Shown piece by piece: positions 3,426 to 12,758 of a DNA stretch of 13,009 bases (position 1 is its first letter; the number at the start of each line of letters is the position of its first letter). Where the stretch lies: assembly GCA_019347855.1 (NCBI GenBank), contig JAHWKO010000069.1, forward strand, positions 1-13,009, written 5' to 3'. The notes under the pieces are model-generated. The model was not told the origin of the DNA and made no database searches. It worked only from the letters and a program-made list of their open reading frames with translations. Origin of the DNA: Actinomycetota bacterium. GTDB taxonomy: Bacteria; Actinomycetota; Nitriliruptoria; Nitriliruptorales; JAHWKO01. The translations under genes and the position numbers were made by a program.

Positions 3426-4682
3426 ATGCGTGGAGCGGTCGCCGCCCTCGCCCTCGGGGCGCTGATGGCGGCCGCCTGCGGGGGGACCGGCGGCACGTCC
3501 TCCTCTCCGGGGGCCGGGTCGACAGCGTCCGACGCGGCGCCCCCCGGCACGTGCCCCGAGGGGACGCTGCTGCACGGCGGCGAAGCGCCGATCGAGGAGT
3601 CCACCGGCGACCCGGATGCGCAGTTCCCGTGGTTGCGTGACGATCCGGTCGTGGCCGAGGGGTTCGACGACGACGAGATCATCTCCGGGGGGCCGCCTCC
3701 TGACGGGATCGAGCCGATCGAGCGTCCGTGCTTCGAAGAGGTCGACGCCGCGGGGGAGTGGTTGGAACCGCAGAGCCCCGTGTTGGACATCGAGGTCGAC
3801 GGCGACCGGCGCGCCTACCCGCTGGCGATCATGACCCAGCACGAGATCGCCAACGATGTGATCGGTGGCCAGCCGGTCGTGGTGACGTACTGCCCGCTGT
3901 GCAACTCCGGGCTGGCGTTCCACCGGGAGGTCGACGGGCAGGTCCTGGATTTCGGCACCAGCGGGATGTTGTACCGGTCGAACCTGGTGATGTACGACCG
4001 GCAGCACAAGAACCTGTGGGTGCAGTTCACCGGCCGTGCGGTGGTCGGCGAACGCTGGGTTGGTACGGAGCTGGAGCGCATCCCCACCGCGCTCGTGTCC
4101 TTCGAGGAGTTCGCCGAGGCGTCACCCGACGGGATGGTGCTGTCGCCGGCGACCAACCCGGACCGTGACTACGGCCGCAACCCGTACCCGGGCTACGAGA
4201 ACCGGGCGTCGGACTTCCTGTTCGAGGGCCCGACCGACGACCGGCTGCCGCCGAACACCCGCGTGGCCGGGGTGGCCGGACCCGATGGTCAGGATCCGAA
4301 GGCGATCCCACTGGAACGGTTGCGGGAGGACCACGTCGTGCACACGGATCTGGACGGTGAGCCGGTGGTGGTCTGGTGGGCCCCCGGGGCGTCCAGCGCC
4401 GTCGACGCGAACACGGTCGCGGGGGGCAAGGACGTCGGGCAGACCAGCGCGTTCCGACGTGACGGTGCGCACGGCTCCCAGCTGACGTTCCGTCCGTCAC
4501 CGGACGTCGAGGACCGGTTCGTCGACGAGGAGACCAGGTCGACGTGGAGCTTCGACGGTCGGGCGGTCGACGGGCCGCTACAGGGCACCCAGCTCGAACG
4601 CGTCGCGGTCGACGACACGTTCTGGTTCGTGTGGTTCGCGTTCCGCCCCGACACCACGGTGCTCGACGGTGGAGGTTCCTGA
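3426..4682 (+). CDS. DUF3179 domain lipoprotein
   Basis: A 418-residue protein with a short signal sequence and a lipobox LMAAAC (Cys18), so it is expected to be lipid-anchored outside the membrane. A Thr/Ser/Gly-rich linker follows. The core is DUF3179: YPLAIMTQHEIANDV at 131-145, then TYCPLCNSG at 154-162 with Cys156 and Cys159, and DFGTSGMLYRSNLVMYDR at 175-192. The conserved His139, Glu140 and the CPLC pair look like a metal or redox site, but the family has no established activity that I know of. No clear ribosome site is present. The start is three bases after the stop of the membrane protein, suggesting translational coupling. Its stop is two bases from the end of the convergent selenoprotein gene, with no room for a separate terminator. 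Confidence 0.9.
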   Translation: MRGAVAALALGALMAAACGGTGGTSSSPGAGSTASDAAPPGTCPEGTLLHGGEAPIEESTGDPDAQFPWLRDDPVVAEGFDDDEIISGGPPPDGIEPIERPCFEEVDAAGEWLEPQSPVLDIEVDGDRRAYPLAIMTQHEIANDVIGGQPVVVTYCPLCNSGLAFHREVDGQVLDFGTSGMLYRSNLVMYDRQHKNLWVQFTGRAVVGERWVGTELERIPTALVSFEEFAEASPDGMVLSPATNPDRDYGRNPYPGYENRASDFLFEGPTDDRLPPNTRVAGVAGPDGQDPKAIPLERLREDHVVHTDLDGEPVVVWWAPGASSAVDANTVAGGKDVGQTSAFRRDGAHGSQLTFRPSPDVEDRFVDEETRSTWSFDGRAVDGPLQGTQLERVAVDDTFWFVWFAFRPDTTVLDGGGS

Positions 4683-4684
4683 AC

Positions 4685-5401
4685 TCATCCGCGGTCGCTC
4701 CAGATCCGTTCGGCCTCGCGGAACTCGGCTAGCGAGCGGGGCCCGTTGCGTTGCTCGAGGTGCCGGTAGAACGCCTGCCGGTCGACCTCTCGGTGCTCGA
4801 GCTGCTCGGTGACGTACGGCGCCAGGGTGACGCCGGCGGTCCGCTCACCGCGGGTGTCGGTGTGACGGTCGACGAAGGCCTCGACGTTGGTCGCGCTGGT
4901 CCACTCGGCCTTGTAGACCAGTCGCCCGCCCCGTCCGACCACCCAGGTCATGTTGGGCATGGATCCGTACGCGCGGTGGGCGGTCCCGTCGAGGTCGTCG
5001 ACGAGGATCGGTCGGCTGATCCCGAACACGTCGCGCAGCTGGCCCGCGGCCGCCAACTTGTCGTCGAACGTGGCATGGGCGGGCACGTGCGCGCCAGGAT
5101 GGGCTTCACGGGTGTAGACGAACACCCACGACCCGGCGGTGTGCCGGCCCGCAGCTTCGTCGAGCAGAGGACCCTCCGCCGCGCAGTACGGTCAGGTGAA
5201 GGACCCGAACTCGAGCACCGCGTACGAGTCGGACCACAACGAGGACAGCGCGACCTGCTCGCCGTCGTCCAGACGCGTTAGCGCGGCATCCGGTGCGGCT
5301 TCGCCGACGTGGAGGTGGTCGGCGAACCCGGCGAACTCGGCCTGGTCTGCGCCGTCACGGACGTACGCATCGAAGTGCTCGTAGTTGTAGGTGTCCGTCA
5401 C
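4685..5401 (-). CDS. Deiodinase-like thioredoxin-fold selenoprotein (in-frame UGA = Sec70)
   Basis: Read through the TGA at 5194-5192, this is one 238-residue protein. Conventional translation splits it in two and deletes the active site. The GTG start at 5401 overlaps the stop of the preceding ZAS-2 gene (GTGA), with GGGGAG upstream. Order: a redoxin-like lead-in HVGEAAPDAALTRLDDGEQV (31-50), the strand AVLEFGSFT (61-69), then U70-P-Y-C73, the motif EAH (99-101), VDDLDGTAHRAYGSMPN (134-150), and a roughly 60-residue helical tail. FGSxTU and EAH are hallmarks of iodothyronine deiodinase-like proteins. U70 and C73 form a UxxC selenylsulfide motif. A SECIS-like hairpin follows the UGA. The likely role is a thiol/selenol redox enzyme rather than thyroid hormone deiodination. 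A sequencing error or pseudogene is the alternative, but the stop falls exactly on the family's Sec position. Confidence 0.85.
5163..5194 (-). promoter_or_regulatory. Bacterial SECIS element following Sec UGA
   Basis: Counting the U of UGA (5194) as 1, nucleotides 15-21 pair with 26-32 (GGCGGAG with CUCUGCU, including two G-U pairs), closing a GGUC loop at 22-25 (5173-5170). Bacterial SECIS elements are hairpins placed at this distance with G in the first loop positions. From memory, E. coli fdhF has the same GGUC loop at 22-25, whose G23 and U24 are bound by SelB. The bulged U17 of fdhF is absent here. The hairpin lies within the coding sequence (P71 to about D81). Confidence 0.75.
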
Positions 5402-5673
5402 GTCGCTCCCCGTTCGGTCAGCTCGGCAACCAGGCTCTCCAGTCGCGCCAGTTGGCTGTGGTCCACCTCGGTCCGCAGACGAGCCAGCGCCCGCTTCAGC
5501 AGACGGTAGTCGCCGGCATCCGTGCCGCATGTGGAACAGGCGTCGAGGTGGTCGGCGACCGCGATCGCGCCAACGGGGTGCAGCTCACCGTCGAGGTAGG
5601 ACTGCAGGACGCGCCGCACCTCCCGGCAACGATGCTGGCGTCCTCGTCGAGACCGACGGTCGCTCAGTGCCAC
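5398..5673 (-). CDS. ZAS-family zinc-binding anti-sigma-like protein (ZAS-2)
   Basis: A 91-residue protein. The GTG start at 5673 overlaps the end of the upstream membrane protein gene by ten bases and has GGAG eight bases upstream. The zinc motif is C16, H42, C46, C49 (HLDACSTC), the same spacing as in RsrA-type redox-sensing anti-sigma factors. Next comes SYLDGEL, then a helical C-terminus ending LVAELTERGAT. It is clearly a paralogue of ZAS-1 (6670-6942): the spacing of the four ligands and the YLDGEL and ELTE blocks match. Unlike ZAS-1 it has no adjacent sigma gene in its operon. It is translationally coupled to the selenoprotein instead. It could bind the same sigma factor, bind another, or serve as a redox partner of the selenoprotein. 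Confidence 0.85.
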   Translation of the reverse strand: MALSDRRSRRGRQHRCREVRRVLQSYLDGELHPVGAIAVADHLDACSTCGTDAGDYRLLKRALARLRTEVDHSQLARLESLVAELTERGAT

Positions 5674-5993
5674 GCCGCCCACTCCGCCCCGAAGGCGATC
5701 CCCACCGCGAAGGCGACGAACATCGCCACGGTCAACGATCCCACGACGGGATGGGTGCCGTGGCCGGAACGCGCCACCCCGACGTGGAAGGTCCCCGCGG
5801 CCGCGGCTACGAGAAGCCACCACACGACCCGAGCTGGGGTCGGCCAGCCCAGGGGGATCAGCGCCGACGACCAGCCGGGAGCGGGCGAGTTCGCCCACCC
5901 GCCGCCGAGGACCTCGAGTCCGACCGCCGCCAGCACGAACCCGGCGGCACCCAACGCCCACCAGGGCATCGGAGTGTTCTCGTCCCGGCTCAT
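5664..5993 (-). CDS. Three-helix membrane protein, first gene of selenoprotein operon
   Basis: A 109-residue protein starting MSRDENTPMPWW. Hydrophobic segments lie at about residues 11-31, 55-72 and 84-104. Trp is frequent, and the loops carry Gly/Pro and several His (HGTH near 78-81). No family is recognised. Long upstream extensions of this frame were rejected because they cross the divergent promoter region and show no membrane or domain pattern. The ribosome site before 5993 is weak (GGGG), and the predicted transcript start from promoter dyad copy 4 is only a few bases upstream, so translation may be near-leaderless. A later ATG (residue 9) is possible. It overlaps ZAS-2 by ten bases, so the two are made together. 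It may anchor the redox proteins at the membrane, which is inference. Confidence 0.7.
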   Translation of the reverse strand: MSRDENTPMPWWALGAAGFVLAAVGLEVLGGGWANSPAPGWSSALIPLGWPTPARVVWWLLVAAAAGTFHVGVARSGHGTHPVVGSLTVAMFVAFAVGIAFGAEWAAWH

Positions 5994-6106: not shown

Positions 6107-6673
6107 GTGGGAGCAGACACGGCTGAAACGACCGAGTCAGCGGAACGCGACGAGGCGTTCCGCGAGTACGTCGTGCCCGAACTGGAGATCCTGCTGCGGG
6201 TCGCCCGCAGGATGATGGGCGATACGCATACCGCCGAGGACATCGTGCAGGAGACCCTGCTGCGCGCCTACCGGGCGATCGACCGGTTCGACGGGCGTCA
6301 CCCACGGGCGTGGCTGCTGACGATCCTGCGCAACACCGCCAAGAACCACTGGCGGAAGCAGAAGAAGGTCTCGGACTTCTCCGAGGAGATCCTCGAGTCA
6401 ACCGCCGCCCCCGGCGCCGACGGCCGAACCGGACCGCAGGAGATCGTCCTCGACGAGATGCTCGACCCACCCGTGGCCAACGCGCTGCGGTCGCTGTCCG
6501 ACAGGTTCCGAGCGGTCGTCATCCTCGTCGACGTCGACGGGCTCACCTACCAGGAAGCGGCTGACACGCTCGACATCCCGATCGGAACCGTCATGAGTCG
6601 CCTGCACCGCGCCCGCAACCGCATGCGCGATCAGCTCCGCGAGGGGGGCTACCTGCCAGGAGGTGCATCGTGA
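6107..6673 (+). CDS. ECF sigma factor, SigR/SigH-like
   Basis: A 188-residue RNA polymerase sigma factor. Region 2 (about residues 20-86) contains AEDIVQETLLRAYRAIDRF and PRAWLLTILRNTAKNHWRKQKK, for core binding and -10 recognition. Region 4 (about 123-177) carries the helix-turn-helix GLTYQEAADTLDIPIGTVM, for the -35. There is no region 1.1 or 3, as expected for ECF factors. The partner gene encodes a zinc anti-sigma factor and overlaps the stop (GTGA), the arrangement of sigR-rsrA in Streptomyces and sigH-rshA in mycobacteria. The GTG start at 6107 lacks a clear ribosome site and is the least certain part. Promoter dyad copy 4 upstream and its repeats across the window are the natural candidates for its targets. 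Confidence 0.93.
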   Translation: MGADTAETTESAERDEAFREYVVPELEILLRVARRMMGDTHTAEDIVQETLLRAYRAIDRFDGRHPRAWLLTILRNTAKNHWRKQKKVSDFSEEILESTAAPGADGRTGPQEIVLDEMLDPPVANALRSLSDRFRAVVILVDVDGLTYQEAADTLDIPIGTVMSRLHRARNRMRDQLREGGYLPGGAS

Positions 6674-6942
6674 GACTGCCGTGGCGACGGAACGACCCCG
6701 AGCAGCTCGAGTGCCACGAGGTGGCCGAGGTCATGCAGCACTACCTCGACGGTGAGCTCGACCGGTCCACCGCACGCAAGGTCGCTTCGCACCTCGATGA
6801 CTGCCGCCGCTGTGGCCTCGAAGCCGAGACCTACGAGGAGCTCAAGCGACGCCTGTCTCGCTTCTCCGGGCAGGTGGAGCCGGAGGCCGTCGAGCGTCTG
6901 CGCGAGTTCGTCGACGAGCTCACCGAGGGTGCCGACGCTTGA
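6670..6942 (+). CDS. ZAS-family anti-sigma factor (ZAS-1), RsrA-like
   Basis: A 90-residue protein starting at GTG 6670 with AGGAGG five bases upstream. It has C15, H41, C45 and C48 (HLDDCRRC), the H-x3-C-x2-C zinc anti-sigma signature with the N-terminal Cys 26 residues before the His, as in RsrA. YLDGELDRSTARKVASHL precedes the motif, and a helical tail ends VDELTEGADA. In the family, disulfide formation between these cysteines expels zinc and frees the sigma factor, so this is the expected redox switch for the sigma factor encoded just upstream. It overlaps the sigma stop by four bases. The paralogue ZAS-2 lies on the divergent operon. Confidence 0.92.
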   Translation: MRLPWRRNDPEQLECHEVAEVMQHYLDGELDRSTARKVASHLDDCRRCGLEAETYEELKRRLSRFSGQVEPEAVERLREFVDELTEGADA

Positions 6943-6989: not shown

Positions 6990-7274
6990 CTAGAGCTCCA
7001 CCTTCACGCCACGCCAGAACGCGACGCGGCCTTCGATCTTCCGTGCTGCCCGGGAAGGATCGGGGTAGTACCAGGCCGCGTCGCGGTTGATCTGTCCGTC
7101 GACCACCACATCCAGGTAACGCGCCCGTCCTTTCCAGGGGCAGCGACTCGTCGAATCGGACTCCTGGAAGTACTCGTCCTTGAGGGACTCGCGCGGGAAG
7201 TAGTGGTTGCCCTCCACGACGACCGTGTCGTCGCTGTCGGCGAGGACGGTGTCGTTCCAGATCGCGGTGGGCAT
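6990..7274 (-). CDS. DUF427 family protein
   Basis: A 94-residue protein, the usual length for DUF427. It carries the signature SRCPWKGRARY at residues 43-53 (Cys45, Trp47, Lys48, Gly49), with VVEGNHYFPRESL before it and DAAWYYPDP and GRVAFWRGVKVE after it. The start at 7274 has GAGGA five bases upstream. Larger readings in this strand were rejected as they lack family pattern. The family is a small beta-rich fold of unknown biochemical function, common in actinobacteria. The - strand reading of promoter dyad copy 5 would start its transcript about 20 bases upstream, which ties it to the same stress regulon. Confidence 0.9.
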   Translation of the reverse strand: MPTAIWNDTVLADSDDTVVVEGNHYFPRESLKDEYFQESDSTSRCPWKGRARYLDVVVDGQINRDAAWYYPDPSRAARKIEGRVAFWRGVKVEL

Positions 7275-9955: not shown

Positions 9956-10624
9956 ATGGTCGGTCTGGTCCTCCTGGACGTCAACGGCACGTTGTTCTCG
10001 CTGGACGCCGTCGCCGACCGCCTCACGGAGGTCGGGCTCGACGGCGCGTTGGACGGGTGGTTCGCCCGCATCCTGCGTGACGGGTTCGCGGCGGCCGCTG
10101 CCGGCACGTTCGCTGCCTTCCCGGACCTGGCGCGCCACCTGCGGGTGTTGTTCGACGACGACGGCCAGCAGGACACCGACGGGAAGGCCGACCGGGTCAT
10201 CGACGGGTTCACGCAGGTGACCGCACACGAGGACGTGGAACCGGGACTGCGCCGCCTGCGTGACGCGGGGGTGACCGTCGCGACCATGACCAACGGGACC
10301 GTCGAGATCACCCGGGACTTCCTGCACCGTGAGGGACTCGACGGCCTGGTCGATGTGACCTACGACGCCGAGATGGCCGGCCGCTGGAAGCCCGCCGCCG
10401 ACGCGTACCAGCACGTGCTGAACGCCCACGATGTTCAGGCTGGCGATGCTGCCCTGGTCGCCGTTCACCCATGGGACGTCCACGGAGCGATCCAGACCGG
10501 GCTCGTTGGCGCGTGGGTCGACCGCGCCGGTGAGCCCTACCCACATCCTCTGGCGCAGCCTGACGTCGAGGCCGGCTCGTTCGACGGTGCGGTCGAGCAG
10601 CTCCTCGCCGAACGCGTGACGTGA
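9956..10624 (+). CDS. HAD-superfamily hydrolase, type II haloacid dehalogenase-like
   Basis: A 222-residue HAD hydrolase with GGAGG nine bases before the ATG. Motif I is DVNGTLF (nucleophile Asp8). WFARILRDGF (35-44) holds the Arg41 that resembles the halide-side Arg of L-2-haloacid dehalogenases. Motif II is MTNG (111-114). WKPAADAY (144-151) reproduces the K-x5-Y spacing of the dehalogenase branch (Lys145, Tyr151). Motif III is AVHPWDVHGA (169-178) with Asp174. The second motif I residue is Asn10, where phosphatases have Asp and classical dehalogenases have Tyr. The likely reaction is hydrolytic dehalogenation of 2-haloacids, but a phosphatase-like activity is not excluded. It sits between two other dehalogenase-type genes and overlaps the next by four bases. 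Confidence 0.85.
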   Translation: MVGLVLLDVNGTLFSLDAVADRLTEVGLDGALDGWFARILRDGFAAAAAGTFAAFPDLARHLRVLFDDDGQQDTDGKADRVIDGFTQVTAHEDVEPGLRRLRDAGVTVATMTNGTVEITRDFLHREGLDGLVDVTYDAEMAGRWKPAADAYQHVLNAHDVQAGDAALVAVHPWDVHGAIQTGLVGAWVDRAGEPYPHPLAQPDVEAGSFDGAVEQLLAERVT

Positions 10625-12068: not shown

Positions 12069-12758
12069 TCAGCCGTGCGGTTCCTCAAGGGACTCGATCG
12101 GTAGGCCGGCGACGTCCCATTCGGGGTACCCGTCCTCCAGCCGACGGGCGGACCGGCCCCGGTCGGTCAGGGTGCGTACGGCTTCGTCGGCGTAGACGCA
12201 GTACGGACCGCGGCAGTAGGCGACGATCTCGGTGTCGTCGGGAAGCTCGCGAAGTCTCTGGTCGAGGTCCTCGACCGGGACGGAGATCGCTCCGCTGATG
12301 TGGCCCGCTCGGTACTCGGGTTCGGGGCGTACATCGATCACGACGACGTCACCCCGGTCGATCCGATCTGCGAGCTCATCGCGGCTGATCGTCTCGAGGT
12401 GGTCACGGTCGCCGAGGTAGGCGGCTGCGAGCTCTTCGACGCCGTCGACCTGCTCCGCCGCTACGTCGCGCATCGCCCGCCACAGTGCGGCGACCTGCGG
12501 GTTGGCCAGGCGGTAGTGGATGTGGGTTCCCGCCCGGCGGGTTGCCACGAGCCCAGCGCGGGCAAGCGTGCGCAGGTGGTGGGAGGTGTTGGCGACCGAC
12601 TGGTCGATGGCGTCGGCGACCTCCTCCACGGTTCGCTCACCCTGGGCGAGTAGTTCCACGATCTCGGCACGTCGGCCGCTGGACAGCGCCTTCGCGACGG
12701 AGGCGAGCGCAGCGAACAGCCGATCCTTGGCCGCTCTCGATCCTGCCTGGCCGCGCAC
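12069..12758 (-). CDS. ArsR-family regulator fused to a rhodanese domain
   Basis: A 229-residue fusion. The GTG start at 12758 has AGGGGG upstream. Residues about 15-95 are an ArsR winged helix; the recognition region SVANTSHHLRTLARAGLVATRR is followed by the wing GTHIHYRLA. Residues about 122-225 are a rhodanese domain with the active-site loop YCRGPYC (Cys182, Cys187) and the family blocks VVIDVRPEPEYRAGHI and EDGYPEWDVAGLP. The winged-helix part has no Cys, so metal or persulfide sensing by known ArsR cysteine sites is unlikely. The rhodanese cysteines are the obvious candidates for sensing sulfane sulfur. It is divergent from a metallo-beta-lactamase-fold gene, with three matching inverted repeats between them. 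It likely represses that gene and itself (inference). Confidence 0.9.
   Translation of the reverse strand: MRGQAGSRAAKDRLFAALASVAKALSSGRRAEIVELLAQGERTVEEVADAIDQSVANTSHHLRTLARAGLVATRRAGTHIHYRLANPQVAALWRAMRDVAAEQVDGVEELAAAYLGDRDHLETISRDELADRIDRGDVVVIDVRPEPEYRAGHISGAISVPVEDLDQRLRELPDDTEIVAYCRGPYCVYADEAVRTLTDRGRSARRLEDGYPEWDVAGLPIESLEEPHG

Follow-up and report, generated by a model that had tools for sequence, protein, structure and literature searches.

A deiodinase-like gene with an in-frame UGA, very probably a selenocysteine codon, on an actinobacterial contig

We analysed a stretch of 13,009 nucleotides (the window; contig JAHWKO010000069.1 of GenBank assembly GCA_019347855.1) from an actinobacterium of the Nitriliruptorales. 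Its minus strand carries a gene for a deiodinase-like protein whose codon 70 is an in-frame TGA. Conventional reading breaks this gene into two short open reading frames (ORFs), found at 5530-5192 and 5125-4685; as the initial annotation proposed, reading through the TGA at 5194-5192 joins them, from a GTG at 5401, into one protein of 238 residues with the active-site sequence GSFT-U70-PYC, U being the putative selenocysteine (Sec). The EAH motif that it placed 29-31 residues past the UGA is found as E99-A100-H101. The features concerned are the following, with hairpin nucleotides numbered from the U of the UGA.

4685..5401, minus strand: gene for the deiodinase-like putative selenoprotein, 238 residues, GTG start at 5401, stop TGA at 4687-4685
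5192..5194, minus strand: in-frame TGA, codon 70, presumably read as Sec; TGA at the same codon in 80/80 related loci
5183..5185, minus strand: Cys73, partner Cys of U-P-Y-C, invariant in the alignment of relatives
5099..5107, minus strand: Glu99-Ala100-His101 (EAH) motif of deiodinases, invariant in the alignment and aligned with EAHP of Dio2/Dio3
5164..5179, minus strand: upper hairpin of the candidate selenocysteine insertion sequence (SECIS), nucleotides 16-21 paired with 26-31, loop GGUC at nucleotides 22-25 (5173-5170)
5158..5183, minus strand: lower, bulged extension of the hairpin, nucleotides 12-37, in the minimum free energy (MFE) fold
5406..5411, minus strand: GGGGAG, a possible ribosome-binding site seen in the sequence 5' of the GTG start

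Family similarity had been described as continuous on both sides of the TGA, and the Pfam family T4_deiodinase (PF00837) indeed crosses it, matching residues 26-165 with 40 bits against a curated cut-off of 27. The Pfam AhpC-TSA model also matches across the codon (31.7 bits, cut-off 26); the downstream piece alone reaches 23 bits for T4_deiodinase, and the upstream piece alone matches no Pfam family. G+C at codon positions 1, 2 and 3 is 0.70, 0.42 and 0.88 before the TGA and 0.72, 0.51 and 0.88 after it, on both sides also resembling four other genes of the window. In the sequence GTGA, the start codon of the gene overlaps the upstream frame's stop. We conclude that this is very probably one gene, encoding a thioredoxin-fold selenoprotein of the bacterial deiodinase-like UxxC family of PF00837, a redox enzyme in which UGA codon 70 is translated as Sec. 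The observation made in the initial annotation is confirmed, and its interpretation is supported as mostly right.

The strongest evidence comes from relatives, which were collected by a profile scan of genome contigs with two peptide patterns, YTREAHPG and G[LST][LM]PNM..., neither of them near codon 70. This found 180 relatives, the best 80 of which (prefix L) were kept for locus counts. Ranking used a query with Cys at residue 70 and should therefore have favoured Cys forms; still, codon 70, which the search patterns did not cover, is TGA in all 80 kept loci. Checks proposed at the outset, for TGC or TGT at this codon and for homologues that end there, yielded neither (0/80 end at the codon), and the shared TGA excludes a sequencing slip. 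A start codon lies 64-77 codons 5' of the TGA in 79 of the loci, the remaining one (L052) being cut by a contig end, and all 80 continue for at least 162 codons past it, L035 with no stop before the locus end. In the matched copy the site reads UPYC or UPFC throughout. Record titles in this set include Nitriliruptoraceae, Euzebyaceae, Acidimicrobiia, Thermoleophilia and Streptosporangiales as well as many Chloroflexi, one strain being Haloechinothrix aidingensis YIM 98757, besides some other groups. The suggested alignment at residue 70 showed Cys in five of ten full-length database relatives (P0008, P0123, P0125, P0126 and P0203, where PPAVF comes next) and Trp in four (P0004, P0005, P0124, P0128); P0127 is without the site. 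The gene thus shows the combination by which a selenoprotein is recognised: an in-frame UGA, similarity on both sides of it, and Cys homologues at the same place.

Some loci hold further oddities. Extra deiodinase-like copies stand beside the UPYC gene in L039 (4826-5500) and L045 (3858-4535 and 6747-7256); they carry UPPF-type motifs as in animals, two with TGA and one with TGG. L014, titled Acidobacteriota, carries an actinobacterial-type gene whose 42 nucleotides from the TGA are identical to those of L012 and L018, through either transfer or a binning mix-up.

The hairpin that follows the TGA is constrained as RNA. It had been described as seven pairs under a GGUC loop at nucleotides 22-25; the loop stands, and in place of the seven pairs we find six continuous ones, with four more pairs and bulges below. 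The likeness to E. coli fdhF noted in the initial annotation proved correct: a 47-nucleotide fdhF stretch, itself a 100% match to the E. coli gene, has GGTC at 22-25, and the GGUC loop therefore occupies the same place in both. The fdhF element has a bulged U17, the window counterpart of which, C17, sits inside the stem. In animal deiodinase mRNAs the SECIS lies in the 3' untranslated region, whereas here the hairpin lies in the coding region after the UGA.

The bSECIS limits, as printed in the relevant passage of PMC13188914, are a loop of 3-9 nt with G in its first two places, a stem of 4-16 bp, a distance of 16-37 nt from the UGA and an MFE of -7.5 or lower. Our hairpin falls within them (GGUC loop, 6 pairs, 18 nt spacing, -12.6 kcal/mol), as do 74 of the 81 sequences formed by the window and the 80 loci, in which only the upper hairpin was counted; of the TGAs sampled from L001-L018, 536 of 3000 lie within the limits as well. 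Because of that background, a folding energy not unusual against shuffles (z -0.08) and the lack of any match in an Rfam scan of the window for SECIS, fold and limits alone prove nothing. By comparison, a hairpin of exactly this form, with six pairs and GGTC at 22-25, follows one of the 255 TGAs in the window, that of codon 70, and 18 of 3350 in L001-L018, each of them the TGA of the gene. Codons 76-78 are GAG GGT CCT in all 19 sequences (window plus L001-L018), and elsewhere in these genes GGT accounts for 38 of 366 Gly codons and CCT for 8 of 213 Pro codons. The same-codon rate at these three positions is 1.0, against 0.74, 0.36 and 0.38 expected; it falls below expectation at Pro102 (0.25 vs 0.38) and Ala100 (0.30 vs 0.36), and is above expectation at some further columns, 85 and 89 among them. 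Pairing among the 19 is 100%, with a single double change, in L007. The other 62 loci use a different helix (nucleotides 14-20 with 24-30, loop of 3), which is 94.8% paired, has double changes at two pairs (31 cells) and a covariation of 0.304 against 0.010-0.081 in slid versions; none of 500 shuffles reaches its paired percentage, its double-change cells or its covariation score, the compensatory counts being inflated by kinship among the 62 sequences.

Most of the carriers tested have sel genes. Among the genomes that contain the closest relatives (18 in number, G001-G018), 16 have selA over cut-off, 13 selB and 17 tRNA-Sec, the last with at least 58 bits in 16; the corresponding counts in 14 control genomes are 1, 2 and 5. 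The selB and tRNA-Sec models also match related factors and tRNAs weakly. In the actinobacterial class of G013, selA occurs in 20 of 60 members, the figure set against the 16 of 18 being 19 of 59, and the gene has a strong match in one (the centre) and two weak ones near 1e-4. Eleven genomes are without full selA, with tRNA-Sec in 6 and selB in 5, and at least one of selA, selB and tRNA-Sec is found in 63 of 68 carrier genomes. In Haloechinothrix aidingensis (L013), the gene (553490-554182, minus strand) and a selC, selA and selB group (plus strand, from 550251) point towards each other, with about 80 nt in between. The 13-kb window itself contains no tRNA gene.

The structure model of the window protein finds its best solved matches in deiodinases 2 and 3 (9h48, 4tr3), and the FGSxTU and EAHP motifs together with the modelled fold point to an iodothyronine deiodinase architecture. 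Deiodinases carry Sec at the site of codon 70. The protein differs from mammalian Dio2/Dio3 in a shorter stretch after EAHP and in UPYC where animal deiodinases have UPPF (CPPF in the solved Sec-to-Cys forms), a motif not present here; NF038285, the NCBIfam model for deiodinase family proteins, gives 65.2 bits, under its cut-off of 250. A C-terminal helical tail lies outside the range covered by most structure matches. ResA/AhpC/Bcp thiol oxidoreductases and peroxiredoxins score lower than deiodinases, and the EAH motif is not known from them. A selenol/thiol oxidoreductase (U-P-Y-C) is the likeliest identity of the enzyme, which is probably cytoplasmic, as inspection by eye showed no signal sequence; the earlier idea of a selenylsulfide would fit the UxxC motif.

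We propose that SelB with Sec-tRNA binds the GGUC-loop hairpin, which starts 12-16 nt past the UGA, as in E. coli fdhF. Sec70 is predicted to open the first active-site helix, Cys73 following one turn later. The Sec would attack a substrate that is oxidised or halogenated, a peroxide or disulfide being the likeliest, and then form a selenylsulfide with Cys73 that thioredoxin or a low-molecular thiol would reset. Judging from the alignment and from the roles of the deiodinase residues, Ser67, Tyr96, Glu99 and His101 may assist as they do at the deiodinase site. The zf-HC2 anti-sigma gene directly upstream suggests that redox stress may control the gene.

Might the protein instead be a true dehalogenase that, as animal deiodinases do, takes iodine or some other halogen off its substrate, here an aromatic or halo-acid compound? 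Its fold and active-site residues are those of Dio2/Dio3, genes for ‘haloacid dehalogenase type II’ adjoin it in L008, L011 and L061 and one lies about 4.6 kb off in the window, and two reviews state deiodinase activity of gut bacteria in passages that give neither data nor the name of this family (PMC12521424, PMC9101513). We nevertheless consider this improbable. UPYC in place of UPPF supplies a resolving Cys, as is usual in thiol redox enzymes. The haloacid dehalogenase neighbours occur in 3/80 loci, and the type II model covers many phosphatase-like proteins. The passages seen of the 2005 report on bacterial forms likewise expect a function other than in animals (PMC1088965).

Reading of the UGA as Trp rather than Sec, by a code of type 4 or 25, is a far more remote prospect. 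Trp stands at residue 70 in the four full-length entries named above and is encoded by TGG in the L045 paralogue (WPPF), but the entries may stem from pipelines reading TGA as W. The terminal stop is TGA in the window gene and in 32 of the 80 relatives, 13 of the 18 closest; a Trp codon needs no conserved hairpin; deiodinases have Sec at this site; and sel genes occur in most carriers tested. Both the dehalogenase and the Trp readings rank lower than a selenoprotein oxidoreductase. That the TGA ends a decaying gene, through nonsense mutation, sequencing error or pseudogenisation, would agree with the conventional two ORFs and with databases holding mostly the downstream piece (117/120 listed matches), yet virtually no likelihood is left to it, refuted as it is by a TGA at the same codon in 80/80 loci, with both halves conserved and RNA-level constraint just 3' of it.

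A number of points weigh against the selenoprotein oxidoreductase as we describe it. The substrate and the reductant are both predicted. Seven of the 81 hairpins fall outside the bSECIS limits in the MFE fold, including the weakly folding L031 and L051; the compensatory signal of the 19-sequence set comes from one sequence and is reached by 30 of 500 shuffles; and two of five measures on the 62 loci (pairs with double change and further pair types) lie within shuffles. Counts of selA, selB and tRNA-Sec come from the genomes of relatives, and the comparison for selA (16/18) sets carriers from several classes against a background drawn from one. We rejected selA co-occurrence in the Chloroflexi-type set as evidence: selA is as common among class members (88/100 in the class of G085) as among carriers (42/50 genomes of L019-L068, 41 over cut-off) and is therefore uninformative there. 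Five of 68 carriers (G005, G087, G092, G110, G127) have no selA, selB or tRNA-Sec at the limits used; G127 is a Planctomycetota metagenome-assembled genome (L068, CP070790.1) whose 4.28-Mb contig, titled ‘chromosome’, contains the TGA gene.

A second gene with a UGA accompanies the deiodinase-like gene in some relatives. PrdB/GrdB selenoproteins are a different family, and in 11/80 loci a PrdB-like stretch is found no more than 1.3 kb from the gene, with TGA at its U-P-x-C site in 10/10 loci covering that site.

PrdB/GrdB-like, -13 to 100 nt downstream of the gene: L001:2369-3343, L004:6740-7705, L005:6814-7719, L008:6760-7497, L009:6698-7654, L010:6773-7705, L054:2455-3348
PrdB/GrdB-like, 121 nt upstream: L055:1325-2206
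PrdB/GrdB-like, 745 nt away: L029:7438-8367
PrdB/GrdB-like, 355 nt away on the other strand: L031:7585-6887
PrdB/GrdB-like, 1228 nt off, a piece at the locus end: L006:7927-8232

The PrdB-like gene scores 95.8 bits for TIGR04483, below the cut-off of 300, and Pfam GRDB is over cut-off in five loci. Seven of the 11 are titled Nitriliruptoraceae/Euzebyaceae, two Chloroflexi/Anaerolinea, one Gammaproteobacteria and one only ‘bacterium’; the window has no PrdB-like match. L010 holds the gene, the PrdB-like gene, selB, selA and selC in one locus. An inverted repeat seems to follow the PrdB-like TGA in several loci; in L001, the only one folded, shuffled sequences fold equally well (z 0.19). Tentatively, the two may form a two-selenoprotein redox unit across several phyla, in which the PrdB-like reductase may receive selenol reducing power from the deiodinase-like protein or share a substrate with it. 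The passages seen on operons in PMC13188914 name other pairs and not this one.

The remaining genes around the locus are these.

5398..5682, minus strand: zf-HC2 anti-sigma-like gene directly upstream (Pfam PF13490), start uncertain (5682, 5673, 5619, others)
6107-6942, plus strand: extracytoplasmic function (ECF) sigma factor
3426-4682, plus strand: DUF3179 gene with a CPLC motif, converging on the deiodinase-like gene and ending at 4682
9956-10624, plus strand: haloacid dehalogenase type II, over the TIGR01428 cut-off
12069-12758, minus strand: ArsR-rhodanese fusion protein, its rhodanese part resembling selenium-related rhodanese models below cut-offs

A second zf-HC2 anti-sigma-like gene lies on the plus strand of the window, and L005 has an anti-sigma-like ORF (5560-5820) just upstream of its deiodinase-like gene. 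DUF3179 relatives occur in the flanks of 4/80 loci (L024, L047, L061, L065), and the haloacid dehalogenase genes beside the gene (L008:5264-5941, L011:5238-5960, L061:5129-5926) are also over the TIGR01428 cut-off. The small window gene 6990-7274, which we take to be DUF427-like, has no NCBIfam match and relatives near 9/80 loci. Because the DUF427-like, DUF3179, haloacid dehalogenase type II and ECF sigma/anti-sigma genes are each near few loci, we claim none as a partner.

The family itself is not new. According to the passages seen of each source, bacterial deiodinase-like Sec and Cys proteins were first reported in 2005 from the Sargasso Sea, with a redox role suggested (PMC1088965), were counted in 2008 (PMC2398784) and appear with the motif UxxC in the lists of two reviews, from 2022 and 2026 (PMC9312934, PMC13188914); these known proteins share PF00837, UxxC, Sec and Cys forms and a bacterial SECIS with ours. 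The main texts of the two reviews contain neither ‘actinobacteria’ nor ‘chloroflexi’, and our literature search, in the portions of the sources it covered, found no experiments on a bacterial family member. The unannotated window gene belongs to a known selenoprotein family, in a branch of which we found no description. The branch differs in its C-terminal helical tail and in the nearly fixed GAGGGUCCUC hairpin shared by the 19 closest sequences; added here are the branch, that fixed hairpin, the PrdB-like second UGA gene in 11/80 loci and the truncation in databases. Automatic annotation does break the gene, as had been foreseen: the 117 of 120 listed matches, the window's own included, are 143-165 aa long and begin after codon 70.

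The branch is common in databases but hidden as pieces lacking the Sec codon: among 7998 candidates scored, 1399 proteins match at E <= 1e-10, and 110 of the 120 best listed of these are pieces of 145-176 aa starting after codon 70. The different hairpins of the two locus groups form a natural variant set for studies of SelB recognition. Haloechinothrix aidingensis, a named strain with selC-selA-selB beside the gene, makes both decoding and enzyme directly testable.
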